Origin: Monosiga brevicollis MX1
Lineage: Eukaryota > Opisthokonta > Choanoflagellata > Craspedida > Salpingoecidae
Direction: 5' to 3'
DNA length: 64,000 nt
Assembly (NCBI RefSeq): GCF_000002865.3
Contig: NW_001865046.1
Coordinates: 941,918-1,005,917, forward strand
The first letter of the stretch is position 1. Each line of letters opens with the position of its first letter. Positions 1-53,246 of the stretch are shown piece by piece. The translations under genes were made by a program, and so were the position numbers. The notes beneath the pieces were generated by a model. That model had not been told where the DNA came from, did not search any database, and worked only from the letters and a program-made list of their open reading frames with translations.

Positions 1-3000
1 GAAGTTGTCGCACGCTCCGATTCCTTGGCCCATATTATGCCATTGCAATCCTTCGCCAATCTCCTCATATCGGGCAATGTAGGCAGCACCCATACCAAAG
101 GCAGTGGTGGAAAAGAGTGACAGCCCCCACTTGGTACCTGCCGTCATCGTCTCCTCTTGGATTGACACGAACACGTACGGCATGTAAGTTCCAAAATCTA
201 AAAAGCCAAAAAAAAACACAACAATGAGATCAAACAAGAAGAAGAACAAGAAAAAGAACAACATGATGAAGATGAAGAAGCAGAAGCGCCGCGGGCACTT
301 GGTAGGAGCGGATGGTGGTGTGGGTAAACGCACAGATCATGCCACCCACGGCCGCAGCGATGCGCGCTTTGGAAAAAAGCGTGGAGATGATAAAGGCCAC
401 CATGATGGATGCGATGGCAGAAATCTCCAGGTAGACAAAAATGAGGAGGGGATCTGAAAAGGCAAACACGTTGCCACCCACCAGAACCACAGTCATCAGG
501 AAACAAGTGACGGTGAGCACGACCAAGGAAGACAAAAACCAGCCGACCCAGTGAACCAGCTCGGATAGACCTAAGAAGCGATGAATCATCAGAAAGGTCA
601 AAACATGCTTTGCCGACAATATCATAGTCTGTTGTGAGGATGAGGAGAAGGGACGCTCACGCACCCATCATTTTCGTATATTCCTTCAGCCTCGTTTCTT
701 TCTCGTGCACGATGTTTTTGGCCAGCATGGTCACAAAGTAAATCCAGGCTGCAGACAATGGCGCCCAACAAAAGGTGTCAATCGGAACATCAAAAGAACG
801 TTATGTCTGGGAGAAGACAAGACGCTGCTGACTTACACAGCACCATGAAGAGGGGCAGGGTGCGGCTGATGCCCCACGCAAAGAGGTCATCTCGGTAGGC
901 CGGGACGGGCATCATTTGAGCATAAACAGCAGGTTCGCCAACGCTTTCACCGGCCCAAAACTCGAGAGTAGCCCGTTCCATGAGGTCCTGTATAATGGTA
1001 AACCCAAGGTAGTAATAGAGCGCATTGGCGGTGTCGCCTGCGTTGTTCCAAGTGTAGGCCGGGGCCAGCTCAGCGGTAGACGGTGTTTTCAGCTGGTGAA
1101 ATCGGATGGACAGCGAGAGATTGTTGGGAAGCCGACCAGTGTCATCCACATCGTGAAAGACAACGCCGCCAAAGACAGTAAAAAGCTTGTCGTCACCCAT
1201 GGCGGCAGCCACAAGCTCCTCTTCGGTGTCGAAGCCAACCCAAAAGTCGTCAAGCTGAAGAGCCGCAAGAGCTGAAGAGTTGGCAGAGCTGGTGAGATTG
1301 TCTAGCCAGGTGAAATTGGCAGGACTGGCTGTGATATTTGCTGCCAGCCTGGAGGCCAGCACACACTCGACCAAGTCCACAACGGCAACAGCCTGCTGAA
1401 GTGTGGCGTTTGCCAATCTAGGAATCAATCCGAAGCAATGTGTAAGCCAACAGAAAGGCGTGACAGCGTACAGGCGCAAACAAGGACAGCAGAAAAGTAT
1501 CGGCACAAAGGGTAGGAGCCATGTCGGTCCTTCACAAAGGCTTGATAAGGATAACCCCTCAGACCAGACTTACCCGATGACCTCGAGGACTTGGCCGCGG
1601 GCTGGCGCGTAATAGACTTGCGCTTGAGTGAAGAGCTCCAAAAGCTGTTCGCTGTTGGCCATGGCATCCAGCCCAACCGTAACCTCGTCTTCGACATCCT
1701 GGCTTGAGGTGTCTTCGCGGTCATGAGCCATTGTGGGTTCAGAAGCCCGGCGGCGTCGAGATGGGTTCGATGGTTCACCGCTGGACGAGGAACGAGTCCT
1801 CTCGGCAACACGTGGGGCGTTCGTGGGGCGGGGTTCATTGGTGGCAGCATTGGGTTCGTAACCCGAACCTTGGGAACGAAAACTGAAGGATCCACCCACC
1901 GCAATACCGTCGGTATTGGGGCATGCAATTTGCTGATAGAGCGTTGACCAATCCAAGTTGCTGCCATTCCGTTGCAAATCGTCCAAAAGCCGATCAATCG
2001 TTGGCAAGGCTTCGATATCTTGGAGCGCAGCCTCGATGCGCGACAGATCTCCAAGATCTGCCTCGAGACGGGCAAACTCATCGAGCAGGACAGGGACCAT
2101 AGAGGTGCTGATGTTGGTGCCAGATGCTTGCGCCAAGGCATCGAGAACGGCCTGTCGCTCGGCTGGGTCTTCAAGCCCAAGTAGCACCGCAACCAAGGCA
2201 CGCTCCAACGCTGGCTCCCGCGCAAGGGCGATGAGGAGATTACTGCGCATCTCGGCCAGCGAGCTGTGATTTGCAGCGTCGGCACGGAGTTGATTTTGAA
2301 CAATCGCGACATCTTCTGGGGTGATTGTGCCGTTGAGCGTACCATTGAGGGCATGCAGCACATCGACAACAGTTACATTGATAAAGTTGTTGGTGGTGAC
2401 ATATTGACGCAAGAATTCTTCTGCGGGGTCTGGGCTGCGCAGAATGGCGCCCAAATCAAATCCGGGAAGCTGAATATCATCAGCCACGGCTGTTAGGTTG
2501 GTCTGAGTGAGGTTGGCCACCAGAGCAGCCAAATCTGGATCGTTGACGAGCCGACAAACGGCGTTGACGACAGCTTGGGTATCATTGCCAGAGGCAGACT
2601 GTGAGAGATTGTACAAGCCATCCCAGTAAGTCGCATTCGTGCCGAACCATAGGTCCGTCAGATCTGCTAGGCCCACGGAAGTGTTGATCAAGCCCACTTC
2701 GCGCAAAGTTTGGTTGAGATCGGCCTCATCGAGGGCCGTGTTGGCCAAGGCCCCCAGAACCACCTCTGGGGTCAGCTGGTAACGGTCAAGGACGGCAGCC
2801 ACGTCTTCCAAGGGACTGCCGGTGGCATTTGGCGAGTCAAAGTTGGCAATGCCACCACAAAGAATGGATTGAACCAGTGCCAGCGCGCCCGAGGAGGGCA
2901 AAGCCAGCGTGTTATATGTAGCTGGGCAAGAGGATCGGGCGGGCGTGAGACAACGACGCCCGCGGGTTGGGGCACAAGGCTGGGGCACAAGGGAGGCGGG

Positions 3001-3175
3001 GCTTACTATCAGGGTAGAGGGTCACTGTTTCACGGGTGCGGACCCAAGCCATGAGAACAAAGAGAAAGAGAGGCACAAGGATTTCAGCCAAGGTGCCACG
3101 CCAGCTACGTCGCTTGAGGAGGTAGTTTTTCCAGAGAAGGGTCCGTAGCTGGCTGCCAAAGCCAGCACGCGCCAT
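1..3175 (-). CDS. ABCA-subfamily ABC transporter, N-terminal half (partial)
   Basis: Lipid-type full-length ABC transporter of the ABCA subfamily, expected in plasma or endosomal membranes. Exons on the minus strand: 3175-3007, 2921-1574, 1417-837, 748-665, 570-334, 197-1 (872 codons, in frame at every junction; the 3' part is beyond the left edge). The start ATG at 3175 is followed by the ABCA-type N-terminus (LLWKNYLLKRRSW) and a first membrane helix. A very long extracytoplasmic loop of about 650 residues with many N-x-S/T sites follows. Then come the diagnostic ABCA segment SRTLPLFMVL, the WIYFVTML helix, the cytosolic EKETRLKEYTKMMG stretch and the helices around FSDPLLIFVYLE and FISTLFSKA. 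The exon nearest the edge carries the MPYVF...AFGMGAAYIARYEE..GLQW region. Both nucleotide-binding domains lie outside the window. The loop has low similarity to known members, so the exact subfamily member cannot be given. Confidence 0.88.
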
Positions 3176-4206
3176 GATTCTGAGCTAAAGTGCCAGACAG
3201 CAGACCTCGAGAGCGGTAGGCAGGTATATAGTACACCCGATGGGCGGCAGGCGTCACCAACGGCTGTCCAGATGAGCCAAGGGCTGATCCATGGGTGGGC
3301 GCAAACGGAGGAGGTGGGGAGCAAGCCGTCTTTTAAAAAGGCTCCGTCGAGAGTGCGGCCGAGTTGAAACAGGAGGCAAGGAGGGAGTGTCAGATGACAG
3401 ACGTGTTAGCTGCTTGATCAGCTGGCTTGATCGCGACAGCTGAGAACTATACCGCGAGGCATGCCCCAGCAAGTGAGGCTTGAGAAAAATGCGGGAGACG
3501 TGCGCCATCGCAAGCGACAGAAAGTTGCAGCCCAAGCAAGGCACGTTGCCGCACATGTCCAGCTCCAACACCCTGACAGAACACGCGTACCTGATGACTC
3601 CAGAAACGGATACCAGCCACTACACCGCCACTGATGTCCAGTGCCCGTCACCGCCGTACCGTACTGTACCGTTCCGTTCCGTTCCGTTCCGTTCCGTTCC
3701 GTTGCGATGGTCCGACTGCCGTTTCGCACCTTGGCACACGTAAACGGCAGAAGGGTTTCCGCTATGCGATAGTGTTACTTATATCACACTTTTGCACCCG
3801 CAGCTGCGCAGCTGCTCGTGACACTAACGATGCAATTTACGCTGTAAAGTATCGTTAAAGATGTTAACATGTCTGCATAAACTCGATTTTTCACACCGAT
3901 AACTCATATATGTCAGACAAAAGGAGCCGTGGACGGAGCAGTTGTTGTGATTTTTTCATTTTTTTTAAAAAAATTTTTTGGGAGCAAGTTTCAAGTAGTG
4001 GTGGCTCGGGTGGGCTGGCAGGTCTTGCTGGGCTGAGAGGAGCGATAGGGGCTTATTGTGGACAGTGGTCGTGGTGCCAGGGGTCTAATACGCGTTGGCC
4101 CTGCCCTGTTTTTTTGTTTGTTTTTTTAACTTTTTCTTCTTCTTTCCTTCTTTCTCTGGTTCTGTCTGCTTCTTGGCGTTTGCGGACGAGGGAGCGAAGG
4201 GACAGG
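3176..4206. other. Intergenic region between divergent ABCA and zinc-knuckle genes
   Basis: About 1 kb between two divergently oriented start codons. It holds six GTTCC units, an AT-rich stretch around 3760-3970 with homopolymeric T and A runs, and no convincing coding exon. Promoters of both neighbours presumably lie here; no core element could be assigned. Confidence 0.6.
3671..3700. repeat. GTTCC pentanucleotide tandem repeat (6 units)
   Basis: Six perfect consecutive GTTCC units, preceded by degenerate GTACC/GTACT copies from about 3655. Confidence 0.9.
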
Positions 4207-6137
4207 ATGGCGCGGAAGAAAGGGGGTCACCGACGTCGAGGCCATGGGGGTGATGATTCCAATGATTCAGACTCGGGTGGCAGTGGTCCAGAGACGCACA
4301 AGAACACTGCAGGCAAGTTGGAATTGTATTGCTTGCATCGTTGCAGGGGCCGTGCAGGGGCTATGGCCGGCAAAGTACTGTGTGTCACTGGTGTGATGGC
4401 AGTAGCTCATTCCCCACACGCACCTGGCCCCTGGCACCTGGCCCCTGGCACCTGGCACCTGGCACCTGGCACCTGGCACCTGGCATGGACTCGCGGCGTG
4501 GCCAATAATCCATGTCTCTGCTTTAATTAGGTGGAGCGTGCTTCAATTGTGGGGCAGCAGACCATCAAACTCAGCAGTGCCCGGTCAAACGAGCCAAATC
4601 CAAGGCCTCGCGCAAGTGCTACGTCTGTGGCCAGCGTGGGCACACGCGCCGGGAATGTCCTGGAGTGGATGATGGCGGATCCGGGCAGAGCAAGTACAAG
4701 GGCAAGTTTTCCAAGATGCCAGCCCATATTCGCCAAGCTCGTGCTGGTCTCCAGGCGCAAGCCGCCGAAGTACCTCCGCTCTGGACCCGTGCAGAGAGCC
4801 GCCTCGGCCTGATGGACTGGCTTGTGCGACCCGCCGCCCTGCTGCAGGCGGCCAAGGTCAAGGACATGAGCAGTCTCTATGAAATGTGTGCTACCCAATT
4901 GCCCACGCAAGAAGGTAGGCTAGGTCCACTGGTCCTGGTCTACAATGACCCTGCCGAGCTACTCCCAGCCCAAGGCTCGCCCTTGTACCGCGCCTGGGAA
5001 GGTGATGCTCACACCCCACCGCAAGCAGACCCCCCCACAGCTTTGGCTGTGCCAGCTCCAGAGGTGGCCGCAATGGTGGGGGAGCATGGTCTGCCAGACG
5101 TCAAGCAGGATGGTTGTTCTGATGCAAATTCTGAGGATGCCACGCGTGGAGCAGCTGCCAGTAGCCTTTGGTCAACGATGGAAGCAACCTCGGCCGAAGC
5201 TTCCCTGGGCGAGCAGCTCACTGGCACTACCCTGGATGACCCACCGGCAGAACCGGTGCTTCCTCGCACTATGGCTGCTTTTGGTCTCGGACCACGGTCG
5301 GCCAACCTGTGGGGAGATGAGACGGGGCAGCGGATACGTGACTACATTGCATCGGATGCATGTTATTTTGTGGGTGTCGTGGGCTTGGATACGCCCAAGA
5401 GCGACGAGGCTCGCACCAAGGCGCAGGTGCAAGCCTTTTGTGCGCAATTACAGCTAGCGGTCCAGCTGCGGCGAGGCATCATTGTCACCGTGGCTGCAGG
5501 CGCTGAGGCTCTGGCCCTGGCAGCCCTGGACAAGCACGTTCCAGACCCTGCCCACCCCATCATTTTGCACAACTACTGTGCAGACCCCGACTGGATATTT
5601 CGGTACGACGCAAAATCTTTGTTTTTGGCCCATACTAGCCCATTCTTTTGACATCTGAGGCATCTTGCTCACGGCTTCACACTGTGCTCATCGTCTGCGA
5701 CATTGCAGCCTGCGAAGCAAGCGACCGGGATTATTCCAGAGCTTTGATGGCGGCTTGACATTTGCGCGCACCACCGATGCCTATCGGGTAGGATCTTTTG
5801 TCCGATGCCATCCCATCCACCCATGCTCAACAGGTTGCCCAACAGTTTTCATACCCTGTGTCCAGCTCGGGCTCACTTGCTGGCTGCGTGGGCTTGAATG
5901 CAGCGCCTTTTAGCAGATTTGCCGCTGGATCGGTGCTTACTCGCAAGTAGTGCGCCGTTGAATCGACCGACGACGGTGCCGGCCATAGAGCAGCACGACA
6001 TGTCTCATCCCGGCTGCATTGTGGCGACGGGTCGTGCGCTGTTTGAGCTCAAGGGCACGAGTGCGACAGAGGGCTGGCCAGCCCTGTTGTCTGCGCAATC
6101 GGCTTTTGCCACTCGTCTGCTTGATACTCGCTCCTGA
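4207..6137 (+). CDS. CCHC zinc-knuckle protein with degenerate TatD-like domain
   Basis: Exons 4207-4312, 4531-5602, 5709-5787, 5904-6137. The protein starts with a basic/Ser-Asp-rich leader (MARKKGGHRRRGHGG). Two CCHC zinc knuckles follow: C-F-N-C-G-x4-H-x4-C and C-Y-V-C-G-x4-H-x4-C, a type that usually binds single-stranded nucleic acid. The C-terminal half has the layout of the TatD metal-dependent nuclease family: VGVVGLD, QVQAFCAQLQLAVQLRRG, ILHNYC, GGLTFAR and LPLDRCLLASSAP. Family metal ligands are largely replaced: the Glu of the EIGLD motif is Val, the His of the IH motif is missing, and the Asp of ETDAP is Ala/Ser. Only the His of the HCFSG-like motif remains. The first intron starts with GCAAGT, a GC-AG intron. 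Likely a nucleic-acid-binding protein with a non-catalytic TatD fold; function unknown. Confidence 0.78.
4421..4483 (+). repeat. 7-bp minisatellite (CACCTGG/CCCCTGG, 9 units) in intron 1
   Basis: Nine consecutive 7-bp units, seven CACCTGG and two CCCCTGG, inside the GC-AG intron of the zinc-knuckle gene. Confidence 0.9.
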
Positions 6138-36727: not shown

Positions 36728-37314
36728 TCTGACTGATGATGATGATGAGCAAGAGAAAAAAAAAAATTAATGCACGACATCCATGTACTATCTATATTTA
36801 GCACTTTCGCTTGCAAGACATTTAAAGTGTAGTCTATATCACACTTAATAATTTTGAAAGTCTGACGTTTGATAGAGAATGACAATGTGTTGATGTTTTC
36901 AGAACTGTTCTGTTCTTGTTGATGTAAGTTACATGTTGGTACTAGTATAGTTTATGAAACTACCAATATGTATTAAAAGATAGTTTATGCAGAAGATCGA
37001 TAACTTAATGCAGATCATGTTTTTGTGAAGATCGACAACAGCAAGAGTGCGTGACATAGGGAGCGCGCCCCTCCCCCCGCTCAACACGGACCAGGATCAG
37101 TGTGCTCAGTGTGCTCAGTGGTCTCAGTGTGCCCAGTGGTCTCAGTGTGCCCAGTGGGATCAGTGTGCTCAGTGTGCCCAGTGGGATCAGTGTGCTCAGT
37201 GTGGAAAGAGATACGCTTGCAGGCGCTCCCTTTGTGGCGCAGGTCGCTGCTTTTCTGATTCTGATTTCTTGAAGCTGATGCATGATTGCTATTGACAGTG
37301 GATGCAGCTGCAGG
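36728..37314. promoter_or_regulatory. Shared intergenic region of the GH27/GH28 pair
   Basis: 587 bp between two divergent start codons. The GH27-proximal 300 bp is strikingly AT-rich compared with the rest of the window (TATATTTAGCAC, ATTAAAAGATAG and similar), while the GH28-proximal part holds a 9-bp minisatellite. Both promoters must lie in or near this interval; common regulation is an inference. Confidence 0.5.
37098..37205. repeat. 9-bp minisatellite, 12 units (CAGTGtgct family)
   Basis: Twelve consecutive 9-bp units, each starting CAGTG, with variable last four bases (TGCT, GTCT, TGCC, GGAT, TGGA). The length is an exact multiple of three and no stop codon occurs in one frame, but no start codon or splice context makes it coding. 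Confidence 0.92.
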
Positions 37315-38607
37315 ATGCGCTGGTTTGGCAGCATACTACTTGTCTTGGCAGTGCAGCTGCGGCCGAGTGACAGCACGTGTTCAATCGTCGACTTTGGCGG
37401 CATCGGGGATGGACAACATGACAATGGTCCGGCGCTAACTGCCGCCGTTAATGCGTGCCTACAGCGCGGGGATGGTCACGTGCTCGTGCCGGCCGGCAAC
37501 TTTAGCATTCAGCCCGTGGCCTTTGATAAGAACATTACCAATCTTCGTCTCTCCATTGAGGGCTTGCTCTTCAACGGGGCCACCCCCGAAACACTGCCGA
37601 GCCATGCCAAAGCCATCATCACCTTTCATGAGTCTCGAAACGTGACCATTGACGCTGGCATTAGTGTTCGCAGCGCCTCCACGGGTGTCGTGGACGGTAA
37701 TGGCGCTGCTTGGTGGACCATCCGCCGAAAAACGCCCTCCTTCTTTGCCCCCGTTCTCTTCCTATTTCATAACACCGTGGGCACCTTAGTGCGCGATCTC
37801 TGGGTCCGCAACTCACCCATGTTCCATTTGGTGCACGAAAACGCCGCCAACGGCGTGATGGACGGCGTCCTCATCACCGCGCCCGCAGACTCGCCCAACA
37901 CGGACGGCATCGATCTCAGTGGCTCGGGCTTCATCGTCCGTAACAGTCGCATCGACAACGGCGATGACGGCGTGGCCATCAAGCCTAGTTGTGCCAACGT
38001 GACCATCACCAACAACACTTTCCTGCACGGCCACGGTGCCAGTATCGGCAGCATTGGCGAAAATAACGGCACCGGTCACATCGCCAACGTGCTCGTTGAG
38101 AATAACACCTTCATTGACATGCAAAACGTGGCTCGGATCAAGACCTGGCAGGGGGGTCATGGCAGCGTCACCAACATTACTTATCGCCACTTGCGCGTAC
38201 AAGATAGTGACCATGTCATCTTCATCACCCAATACTACTGCCCCTCCAGCCAACACAGTGGTGCGTACCCAGTTCCCAAGACAAGCCCTTGCACCCTCAC
38301 CACCACCACGCGTTATTGAGGTCAGGTGCTCACTAAAGACCATGGTTGTCTGAATCACCACCTAGATCCCTGCAAAAACTACACGGATGCAGTTGTCATC
38401 TCCAACATTATCTTTGACGACGTGACCGGCACCTTCCAGGACTCGAGTCCAGGACAGTTGCTCTGCTCCGATACCTTTCCTTGCTCCAACGTCACTCTCC
38501 GCGATGTTAACCTTCAGGGCAATTCCAAGCACTATACTTGGGACTGCTGGCAGGTGCACGGGCAGGCCACCAACGTCACGCCGCCCATCACTTGCCTTGA
38601 CACCTGA
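37315..38607 (+). CDS. GH28 polygalacturonase, secreted
   Basis: Pectinase family that hydrolyses alpha-1,4-galacturonan. Exons 37315-38260 and 38366-38607 (395 residues); an in-frame ATG at 37282 would add 11 residues before the signal peptide (MRWFGSILLVLAVQL), so 37315 is preferred. Right-handed beta-helix repeats with all four GH28 motifs: SPNTDGID (Asp197), NGDDGVAIK (Asp217 and Asp218), GHGASIGSIG (His240) and ARIKTW (Arg274-Lys276), so it should be active. About 14 N-glycosylation sites and a C-terminal set of cysteines (DPCKNY, CSDTFPCSN, WDCW) suit a secreted enzyme. Only one intron, compared with nine in its divergent partner GH27. GH28 is typical of plants, fungi, oomycetes and bacteria; horizontal origin is possible but not shown. 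Confidence 0.95.
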
Positions 38608-47684: not shown

Positions 47685-48278
47685 GCACCCTTCTCCAATC
47701 GCCACCTCAGGTCCCTCGGCAAGCAGCAGCCAAAGCACAAAGCAGGCGGAAGATGCAGAAGAGTTGCTCTCATCAAGACAACAAGAAAAAGTTTGACATT
47801 AGCACTGTCATGCGAAACTTTTTTTTGGTGAGAACTTGAATTTTGTTCGTGTGTGTGTGTGTGTGAGTGAGTGAGTGTGTGTGTGTGTGTGTGAGTGCAA
47901 GGGTTAGCTTGCAAGTGCCAAGGTTCAAGGCGGATTGGACACGCACGCCGATGGCTGATGTTGAGTTCACTCGATGTTGTTGATGTTAATTTTGTTTGGG
48001 TCTTCTGCTTTTCGGTAGTACTATACAAATCTCTGATGGCCATCATGCACCGCAGGGGAACACGGCGCTACAGAGGGGTCGATCACCAGTCTATGGTTGA
48101 CACGCAACGCACACAACACTCAACACTCACTCTCCTTCGATAAGAGCCTGACTACATGGGCTCTCGGCCCCCTCACAGCGACACGCTTCATGGCTGGCAC
48201 ACACTGGCAGGTCGCTGGTCGAGCGGCACGTCGCGGACGCGCATTGCGAGTTGCCTCGCACAGCATGGTCTAAAACAT
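47685..48278. other. Intergenic region with GT microsatellite
   Basis: Lies between two minus-strand genes. It contains a GT/GTGA tract at about 47847-47897; nothing coding. Confidence 0.5.
47847..47897. repeat. (GT)n microsatellite with GTGA interruptions
   Basis: About 50 bp of alternating GT with GAGT variants. Confidence 0.93.
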
Positions 48279-50070
<1,792 letters not shown>

Positions 50071-50592: not shown

Positions 50593-53246
50593 TCAAGCAT
50601 CAGACTCATTATCATCTTGGGCTTCTGATGCAACGTTGGGGGACGATGTGGGCATGACCGGGGAGGAATTTGGAGCATGGGCAGCCAAGGCAGCCGCAGC
50701 GGTACGGGTGTATTCGTGATTCGGGCCCAGGGTGGCCTGAAAGATGGCCTGAGCCTTTTGAATGCAGATGATGGCGCGCTCGGGTAGACCACAGGCCTCC
50801 AAGATGCCGCTCATTTGCATGGCCACGAGTCCGGTGCGTGGATTCTGCTCACCCAAGGTGGCAATCTGGATGCCTAGGGCCTTGTCGACGCAGGCCAATG
50901 CAGGCTCGATCTGGCCCAGACGTTGATAAACGGTGGCCAGGTTGCCGTACGCGGCACCGGTCTCGGGATGAAGCTCTCCGATGGTGGCGGTATAAATTTC
51001 AATGGCCTTGTTGTAGCCCTCGAGGGCACCCTGAAGGTCGCCTCGCTCGTTGAGAATGTTAGCAATGTTGTTGCGCGATAGCGCCACGGCAGGATGGCGT
51101 TCACCGAGCGCTGCCAGCTGCATGGCCAATGCCTTTTGGTAGCAAGCTAGTTGCTCCTCTTGCTTGCCTTGATCCTTGTAGACGAGGGCCAGGTTGTTCA
51201 ATGTGCTGGCGACGGCAGGGTGCTTGTCACCGACGACCTCGAGCAGGATGGCCAGAGCCTGGTGCATGGCTTGCTCCGCCTCGGCCAAGTGACCCAGCCG
51301 CTGATGAACAACGGCCATGTTGCCAAAAGAGGCAGCCGTATCCTCGTGGCGCTCACCAAGCGTCGTGATACGAATATCAAGGGCTCGGCGATGGTAGTCC
51401 AGTGCGCGGGCAAAGTCGGCCGTGGCCTCGAGGGCTACCGCCAGGTTGTTATAGGTGTGAGCCACGGCCGGATGCTGCTCACCCACGGTGGCGCGGAGAA
51501 TGTTGGCGGCTTGTTCGTAGAGCTGAATGGCGGTGGCGAATTGACCTCGGTCTTTGTGAATGACGGCCATGTTGCTCAGGACATTGGCTACTTCTGGGTG
51601 CTGGGCTCCCAGCAGCGCGCTCAGCTGCTGATGAGCCTGCGTATAGGCGGCCAGTGCTTCGTCCAGACGTCCCTGTTCCTTGTAAACCAAGGCCATGTTG
51701 TTGTGGGTGGAGGCAATGCTGGGGTGTTGATCGCCGAACGCGGCCCGGGCAGTGTCCAGGGACTGCGCGAATAATTGGAGGGCAGCGTCGTATTGGCCCT
51801 GTTGCTTGAGCGTAAGCGCCTTGTGGGCCAATAGAGAGATCATGTTGGGGTGTTTTGGACCCAGGGTTGAGGTGACAATGTCAATGGCACGGTCATAATG
51901 AGCCATGGCGTCGGGGATTTGGCCAAACTCGCCGAGAACGCTGCCGACGCGAAAACAGATTTTAGCCGTGTTGTCAGACTGGGGGGCAGCAGCCAAGGCG
52001 TCACGAGCTGCCACGCGAGCTTGATCAATGCACCAAGCGCGCAGTTGGTCCTTGATGCGAGCGTTCAGCTTGGTGAAGCCGAGCGTGTCTTCGATCGTCT
52101 TGAAAATCATATCGCGGTCGTTGGGTTGGAAAGCTTCAGCCTTTTGTGCCTGAACGCGCACAAGCATGTTGAGAACTTCGTCGGCATTTTCTCCGAGGGC
52201 GTTGAGAAAGCCCTCAATTTCGGCCGTGGGCAGCCGAATGTCGAGCTGAACCTGGCAGTTGAGTGCATTCATCATCTCAAAGAGACACCAAGCCCGGGTC
52301 ATAGGGATGGGGTCATTCCATGGGCTCATGATGAGGAGGACGCGGCCAATGGTGGCAATGTTGGTTTGGAACGTGTTGGACCACCTGCTCGGGAAAAGGC
52401 AAGGTGAGATAGATGGTATGAGAGCAGGTGGAGGGACGGCACAAGTTTGAAGTTGCCGGCGCAAGGACACAGAACCCACCAGGCATAAGGGTAGTTGCAT
52501 GCTTGGTGCTGGTTGTTGGGGATGAGATCCAGCCAATAAAAGGCACCCGGGGCATCCATGGTCTCGTGATGAAGAATTGTCCCAAGGGTCATGTGAAATT
52601 TATACTTCCAAGCATGAGAGACGAAGACGGTGGCAGGGGCTACGTCGGCTTCCAGGGCCGGGTCCTCGAGGAGGACATCAATCATTGCACAAGCTCGAGC
52701 TTTGGTCCGGGGCATGACGTAGCGCACGCAGACCTCGGTGGTCGTCAGGTTTTCATACTCGTCACCAAACTCCTCGCGCAGGGCCGCTTCCAGGCCGCGG
52801 AGGTAGGCGGCGCTGACGCCCAGCAAGGCCCGGCTATTAAGTTTGGGGTCAAGGAACTGAGCTGTCAAAAGATAAACAGGCCATCGCGTGAGGCAGGAGT
52901 GGGGATGGGGGACAGGGAGAAGGGGGAGGGGGGCGAATAGCAAACGGGAGTGGTCGAGGAGCGGGAACAGACATTGATCCGCCGTAGCAGCCTCCTCTTC
53001 TTTGTTGGGTTTGCTGGTGGCCTCATCGCTAGCTTCAGGGGTGTCCTCAGCTTCCTTGACACGAACGGCCGGGTGTGTTTCGGTATCAGGAGCCACGGGG
53101 GGCAAGCGATCATCACTCAGGTCGGGATCAATGATTGAGCCACTGGTCTTGTCAGGCATGGCCAATTCCACCGCGTTGTTGTTGCTGCGCTTGACATCCT
53201 CCTGATCCTCGGCAGGGACCCGAGGGCGGCTCTGTTGGCAGCCCAT
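50593..53246 (-). CDS. Acylated TIR-like (SHAW) domain + kinesin-light-chain-type TPR protein
   Basis: Exons 53246-52973, 52861-52480, 52384-50593 (815 residues, phases fit). It begins MGCQQS, a consensus for N-myristoylation of Gly2 plus palmitoylation of Cys3, so the protein should sit on membranes. A charged disordered stretch of about 75 residues follows. At residues 165-290 is a domain with VFVSHAWKYKF, AFYWLDLIPNNQHQ, IGRVLLIMSPWNDP and TRAWCLFEMMNAL. The buried strand VFVSHAW, a second strand ending in a serine-proline, and the final W-C-x-x-E match the order of TIR-fold motifs; in NADase TIRs the Glu of that last motif is catalytic. Ten 42-residue TPRs of the kinesin-light-chain type (ALVYKEQGRLDEAL...LGAQHPEVA) fill residues 370-780. 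There is no nucleotide-binding ATPase between them. A sensor or scaffold role is inferred. Confidence 0.8.

Follow-up and report, generated by a model that had tools for sequence, protein, structure and literature searches.

A Monosiga brevicollis gene predicted to join a very divergent TIR domain to ten kinesin-light-chain-type TPR repeats

A 64,000-nucleotide stretch of the choanoflagellate Monosiga brevicollis MX1 (contig NW_001865046.1, positions 941,918 to 1,005,917; hereafter the window) carries a gene for a predicted 815-residue protein in which what looks like a very divergent TIR signalling domain is preceded by a putative acylation signal and followed by ten TPR repeats of the kinesin-light-chain type. 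The domain almost certainly belongs to the TIR superfamily, and the protein is probably tethered to a membrane. In outline it looks like an immune-type sensor; the fuller proposal, of a sensor that is tethered to a membrane and signals through its TIR domain, stands at about even chances. If this is right, a large family publicly labelled just 'TPR repeat protein' is a TIR signalling family that Pfam TIR cut-offs have missed, and a concrete sensor-output chain becomes available for choanoflagellates, in which immune recognition is poorly known. It would also allow a comparison of how plants, fungi, animals, and protists independently came to link repeat sensors to TIR outputs.

Identity of the TIR domain

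A search with residues 93–380 recovered 128 proteins at E ≤ 0.001, the gene's own product included, of which 120 were listed, and a search with a 13-sequence alignment of the domain recovered 243; family counts below rest on 240 listed proteins, the best 120 of each search. Sequence similarity within the family is far beyond chance. A sequence-only reading of the gene had inferred a TIR fold from motif order and had proposed structural and profile comparisons with TIR domains, both of which supported it. In the full-length AlphaFold2 model (predicted local distance difference test, pLDDT, 87.4), the domain has the alternating beta/alpha TIR fold, with strand A (VFVSH), strand B (FYWLD), strand C (VLLIM), helix C (WCLFE), and strand D in order, and each of the 50 rows that VIA-align listed for the modelled domain is a TIR-type protein, at about 8–19% identity. 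Profile–profile comparison linked the family to TIR_2: HHalign against a profile of bacterial TIR_2 translations, from which two apparently misread ones (L077 and L085) of 24 had been dropped, gave 96.2%, a score of 64.4, and E 2.3e-9. Reversed-profile controls, run with all 24 translations and with the reduced set, scored 13.0 and 11.9. With gap-rich columns removed, the real score was 53.7 and none of 200 shuffles exceeded 25.6; with gap-rich columns kept, two of the 200 shuffles scored 133, through template-end alignments of 3 and 19 columns. TIR_2 was also the non-TPR Pfam family matched most often, by 21 of 70 TPR-poor members as against at most two for any other.

It is very improbable that the domain is instead another flavodoxin-like fold that converged on the S-H and W-C-x-x-E motifs: TIRs alone fill the listed VIA-align rows, the profile evidence is independent and carries its own shuffled and reversed controls, and no other non-TPR Pfam family approaches the TIR_2 count. 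A HET domain was also considered; HET is absent among the 25 Pfam families listed for the TPR-poor members, and one weak HET match, in P0112 (E 0.0088), does not fall within the domain.

Several results weigh against the TIR assignment. The Pfam TIR_2 matches are weak (17.1 bits for the first member, cut-off 28), the window protein matches no Pfam TIR model, and its residues 93–351 have no Pfam match of any kind. NCBIfam gave no TIR match, Foldseek returned nothing at E ≤ 0.001 (best 0.055), and the VIA Z was always below 8, a range that can reflect merely a common arrangement. PDB sequences, searched with the single domain and with the 13-sequence profile, yielded no TIR-like match; the best was to a histidine kinase sensor domain, at E 0.2. 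Separately, a protein search aimed at collecting TIRs returned one protein. The sub-cut-off TIR_2 score is the failing of a very divergent member, with no structural contradiction.

Among the rows listed, the best structural matches are the plant TIRs RUN1, RPV1, RPP1, and RPS4 together with AbTir, SARM1, and SPARTA, with which the domain shares the fold order and the helix-C glutamate of W-C-x-x-E. Unlike these, it has about 60 conserved residues before and about 80 after the TIR core, the preceding helical stretch (residues 105–164) lying outside the TIR structure matches, which begin at about model residue 72. It also differs from them in being fused to TPRs, with no NB-ARC, ARM, SAM, or Ago among the Pfam families listed. 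The resemblance to SARM1 architecture seen in the sequence-only reading was not upheld: SARM1 has ARM repeats and tandem SAM before its TIR, whereas here the TIR precedes the repeats, and neither ARM nor SAM occurs among the 25 of 36 Pfam families listed. Its view of a TIR joined to repeats without a STAND ATPase was borne out, as neither NB-ARC nor NACHT occurs among the same families, which speaks against membership in the NLR/STAND proteins, and in the model the stretch from TIR to TPRs has no room for an ATPase region of this kind.

The conserved glutamate

The R-x-W-C-x-x-E segment opens helix C directly past strand C, and HHalign placed its glutamate on the glutamate of bacterial TIR helix C, in agreement with the earlier proposal that this residue occupies the TIR catalytic position. 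Its conservation among homologues, suggested as a check, is pronounced: D203, R249, W251, C252, and E255 are constant in 120 of 120 aligned rows, F171, S173, H174, and A175 in 119 of 119, and the R-x-W-C-x-x-E motif is kept in 237 of the 240 listed homologues. By its sequence context, E255 is a putative NAD+-cleaving catalytic glutamate, and the TIR domain is predicted, with somewhat better than even confidence, to be enzymatically active. In the three remaining members, the glutamate is replaced by lysine (P0156 and P0238) or aspartate (P0226); these are possible pseudoenzymes on sequence grounds, and they count against the enzymatic interpretation in that catalysis is therefore not universal in the family.

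A W-x-x-x-E motif is present in SARM1 and AbTir, both enzymatic TIRs. It is nevertheless conceivable, if unlikely, that the domain is a non-enzymatic scaffold that assembles signalling complexes in the manner of MyD88 and MAL and does not cut NAD+, the glutamate and tryptophan being structural. The three members that lack the glutamate and retain the rest of the motif would fit such a scaffold, as would the adaptor TIRs (MAL and TRIF) among the VIA-align rows and the SH2, PH, ankyrin, and UBC partners found in single members, but the glutamate and the W-x-x-x-E spacing are preserved, as in enzymatic TIRs, in all but those three.

The TPR array

The model shows ten TPR helix pairs over residues 356–771, and among solved structures this region best matches kinesin light chains 1 and 2 (lowest E 1.5e-33), which confirms the ten kinesin-light-chain-type repeats read from the sequence. 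The protein shares with these light chains the 42-residue TPR type and differs from them in its TIR domain and linker at the N-terminus, its acylation motif, and its ten repeats. According to the accessible part of PMC1261162, TPR positions 2, 5, 9, 12, and 13 are ligand-contact positions, and the highest variability in TPRs generally is seen at these and at 33 and 34. In 136 distinct TPR units from 25 Salpingoeca rosetta proteins of the family, the most variable positions were 12, 2, 9, 31, 13, 23, and 5, and in 67 units from the M. brevicollis loci they were 9, 12, 13, 31, 41, 29, 38, 2, and 5. Such variability alone proves little, because TPRs in general, as far as that part of the source describes them, vary at these positions; an excess of replacement over synonymous change is the additional point.

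This excess was estimated from 47 strict units of nine M. brevicollis paralogous loci (L044–L052; mean within-locus DNA identity of TPR units 0.58–0.84), using pairs of at least 80% DNA identity. The proportion of nonsynonymous differences (pN) was 0.406 at the five inner positions 2, 5, 9, 12, and 13 and 0.105 elsewhere, and the proportion of synonymous differences (pS) was 0.211. The ratio of inner-position pN to pS, 1.92 (bootstrap 1.58–2.28), was reached by 13 of 20,000 random five-position sets, though pairs of units lack independence and the value may be inflated by recombination. When the local pS of the same five positions served as the baseline, the ratio was 1.00; how strongly selection can be claimed thus varies with the baseline chosen. 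Position 31, which had the highest pN, and position 41 were also strongly variable and lie outside the published variable set. Ten other M. brevicollis TPR_12 loci were inadequate as a within-genome control for homogenization, with two repeat units at only one of the ten (identity 0.35). As a separate observation, one locus (L056, G000:C52:427500-432500) has a homogenized TPR array of the same type, with five units at a mean DNA identity of 0.80, but no TIR-like exon was picked up there in the search for the domain.

The window gene itself does not share this pattern, which weighs against a sensor role for it. Its array is diverged (nine strict units, mean DNA identity 0.48), and with a pN of 0.59 at the inner positions and 0.47 at the rest against a pS of 0.63, it shows no replacement excess over synonymous change. 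Within a family whose other members diversify, this gene is an older and settled one. The earlier description of the array as sensor-like gains support from the hypervariable TPR surfaces of the paralogues; the window's own array is without a diversifying signal. Fungal NLRs with TPR repeats that are highly conserved internally are described in the accessible text of PMC4986451; the paralogues resemble these, so far as described there, in having homogenized kinesin-light-chain-type TPRs that vary at ligand-facing positions, and the family protein differs in lacking NACHT or NB-ARC, in its directly fused TIR, and in its putative membrane anchor. Near-identical repeats varying at ligand positions, the mark of the fungal NLR type, are not found in the window gene.

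The light-chain resemblance raises another explanation, that of a cargo or motor adaptor: a membrane-bound TPR protein like kinesin light chain, whose TIR-like domain would be a house-keeping nucleotide-metabolizing or structural unit rather than an immune one. Kinesin light chains are indeed the closest solved structures to the TPRs, and the window gene is of the slowly diversifying kind. Such an adaptor is improbable, however, given many paralogues with hypervariable ligand positions (the 25 S. rosetta proteins and nine M. brevicollis loci), unlike a conserved motor subunit, and no other motor feature among the families listed in the Pfam scan.

Membrane anchor and family distribution

MGCQQS at the N-terminus is a putative N-myristoylation signal, and the acylation suggested by the sequence-only reading gains support from the recurrence of such starts across the family. 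A start of the form MGxxx[ST] occurs in 45 of 234 listed homologues that begin with methionine, versus 14 of 2625 internal methionines, and in 34 of 151 cluster representatives. All 45 are among the 206 members in which 60 or more residues precede the SHAW motif, and none is among the 24 with fewer, which are apparently truncated. An MGC start lies upstream of the domain exon at 8 of 14 M. brevicollis loci, the window gene's included. On the other side, 161 of the 206 members with long N-termini do not start in this way, and for most family members neither an acylation-type start nor a PH domain has been demonstrated. Partner domains include PH in five of eight members scanned and SH2, ankyrin, or UBC in some, and the PH-bearing members suggest a second membrane route.

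The M. brevicollis genome (assembly of 39.5 Mb in 57 contigs) has the domain at 14 loci, with 27 exon matches. Five of these lie near contig starts, at about 17–35 kb (G000 C53, C18, C46, and C45), and are perhaps subtelomeric. The 240 listed proteins include five from M. brevicollis, 25 from S. rosetta, and many from metagenomes, as well as proteins from the acoel Symsagittifera roscoffensis, Aphanomyces, Rhizoclosmatium hyalinum (P0218), and a chrysophyte (EukProt label). Because of these last four sources, the domain family is not, by its sequence distribution, specific to choanoflagellates, and its earlier treatment as a choanoflagellate matter was too narrow. One member of 1239 residues (P0006) appears by eye to carry the domain three times in succession, with degenerate motifs in the first copy.

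Scans of prokaryotic and viral contigs used short conserved peptides, which divergent relatives may escape. The prokaryotic scan gave 80 pattern matches and one relative, an 836-residue member beginning MGCRMAK at 2755–5265 of a contig from a Verrucomicrobiaceae metagenome-assembled genome (L042); this contig is probably eukaryotic contamination, because adjoining frames resemble an intron-split eukaryotic gene. The viral scan gave 25 pattern matches and no relative, and a structure search of a viral library returned nothing at E ≤ 0.001, its top row being a TIR/WD40 protein of Tetraselmis virus 1 (E 0.016).

Proposed mechanism and relation to described TIR proteins

From the motif and its recurrence, myristoylation of Gly2 and palmitoylation of Cys3 would tether the protein to a membrane through a flexible linker. 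The concave groove of the ten-repeat TPR superhelix would bind a peptide or protein ligand, as the repeat type and the variation at ligand positions in the paralogues suggest. By analogy with established TIR mechanisms, ligand binding or clustering would then cause the divergent TIR domains to assemble, and in this state the TIR, as in plant TIRs, SARM1, and bacterial TIRs, would cut NAD+ through E255 or recruit other TIRs. A role in non-self or danger sensing is possible by analogy, at slightly less than even chances. More tentatively, protists such as choanoflagellates may possess a repertoire of membrane-anchored TIR-TPR receptors without a STAND ATPase, in which homogenized TPRs, with diversifying selection acting at their ligand-binding positions, would sense variable non-self (prey, pathogens, or other cells) and the TIR would answer through NAD+. 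Were this true, the sister group of animals would possess NLR-like recognition of its own, built on a distinct TIR subtype.

No description of the family or of its TIR-TPR architecture was found in the open-access papers searched. The accessible part of Culbertson et al. (PMC13142454) describes diverged, uncharacterized, eukaryote-only TIR clades 10–13 and gives Rhizoclosmatium globosum as the source of its sole fungal TIRs. The present domain is likewise a divergent eukaryotic TIR, with a member in R. hyalinum; going by that part of the source, clades 10–13 may or may not contain the TIR-TPR family, and its main text makes no use of the terms TPR, tetratricopeptide, kinesin, or myrist-. The accessible part of Richter et al. 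(2018; PMC6040629) describes intracellular TIR proteins of choanoflagellates, a number of them carrying Ank, Arm, or SH2, and lists SARM1, Kinase TIRs, and TLRs. The M. brevicollis protein is similarly a choanoflagellate intracellular TIR protein, and TPR and tetratricopeptide do not occur in the main text of that paper.

Gene structure and neighboring genes

The gene lies exactly where the sequence-only reading had placed it, on the minus strand, which that reading had not stated (Table 1). Its structure is a prediction, both in our own splicing and in the public model MONBRDRAFT_25293 (P0001), to which the spliced product is equal letter for letter. All the motifs quoted earlier are present in the protein: MGCQQS (residues 1–6), VFVSHAW (170–176), YWLDLIPNNQH (200–210), LLIMSPW (235–241), and RAWCLFEM (249–256). 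Intron 1 may be retained in a transcript, since it is in frame and stop-free.

Table 1. Features of the TIR-TPR gene, in window coordinates
Feature	Position	Strand	Basis or remark
Whole gene, ATG (at 53246) to stop (50595-50593)	50593..53246	-	815 aa, identical to MONBRDRAFT_25293
Exon 1, aa 1-91 and first base of codon 92	52973..53246	-	predicted, matches public gene model
Intron 1, 111 bp, in frame, stop-free	52862..52972	-	predicted
Exon 2	52480..52861	-	predicted
Intron 2, 95 bp, within TIR domain	52385..52479	-	predicted
Exon 3, including stop codon	50593..52384	-	predicted
MGCQQS, putative N-myristoylation (Gly2) and palmitoylation (Cys3) signal	53229..53246	-	motif and recurrence in homologues
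Linker, aa 7-81, low confidence, probably disordered	53004..53228	-	pLDDT <50 over residues 1-81
Conserved helical stretch preceding TIR core, aa 105-164 (GVS...TT-x-x-x-C...P-x-T)	52644..52823	-	alignment and structure model
TIR core, aa 165-270, interrupted by intron 2	52231..52643	-	structure model, structural and profile comparison
E255 codon, putative catalytic glutamate	52276..52278	-	conservation and alignment to TIR helix-C Glu
Conserved helical extension beyond strand D, aa 271-351 (D308, I312, G321-F322, N326, R334, W336)	51988..52230	-	alignment and structure model
Ten kinesin-light-chain-type TPR repeats, aa 356-771	50728..51975	-	Pfam, structure model, structure match

Just downstream of the TIR-TPR gene, at about 47800–50070 on the minus strand, are exons of a CDK-like protein, named by eye (MNRYAKIDKLGEGTYGVVFKG ... 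HRDLKPQNLLINK ... LADFGLARPYGVPVRSYSHEVVTLWYRAPDVLLG). Elsewhere in the window, the plus strand carries a frame of glycosyl hydrolase family 28, polygalacturonase type, at 37279–38316 (E 1e-47), and a single open frame with matches to a CCHC zinc knuckle and a TatD-type DNase at 4527–5648.
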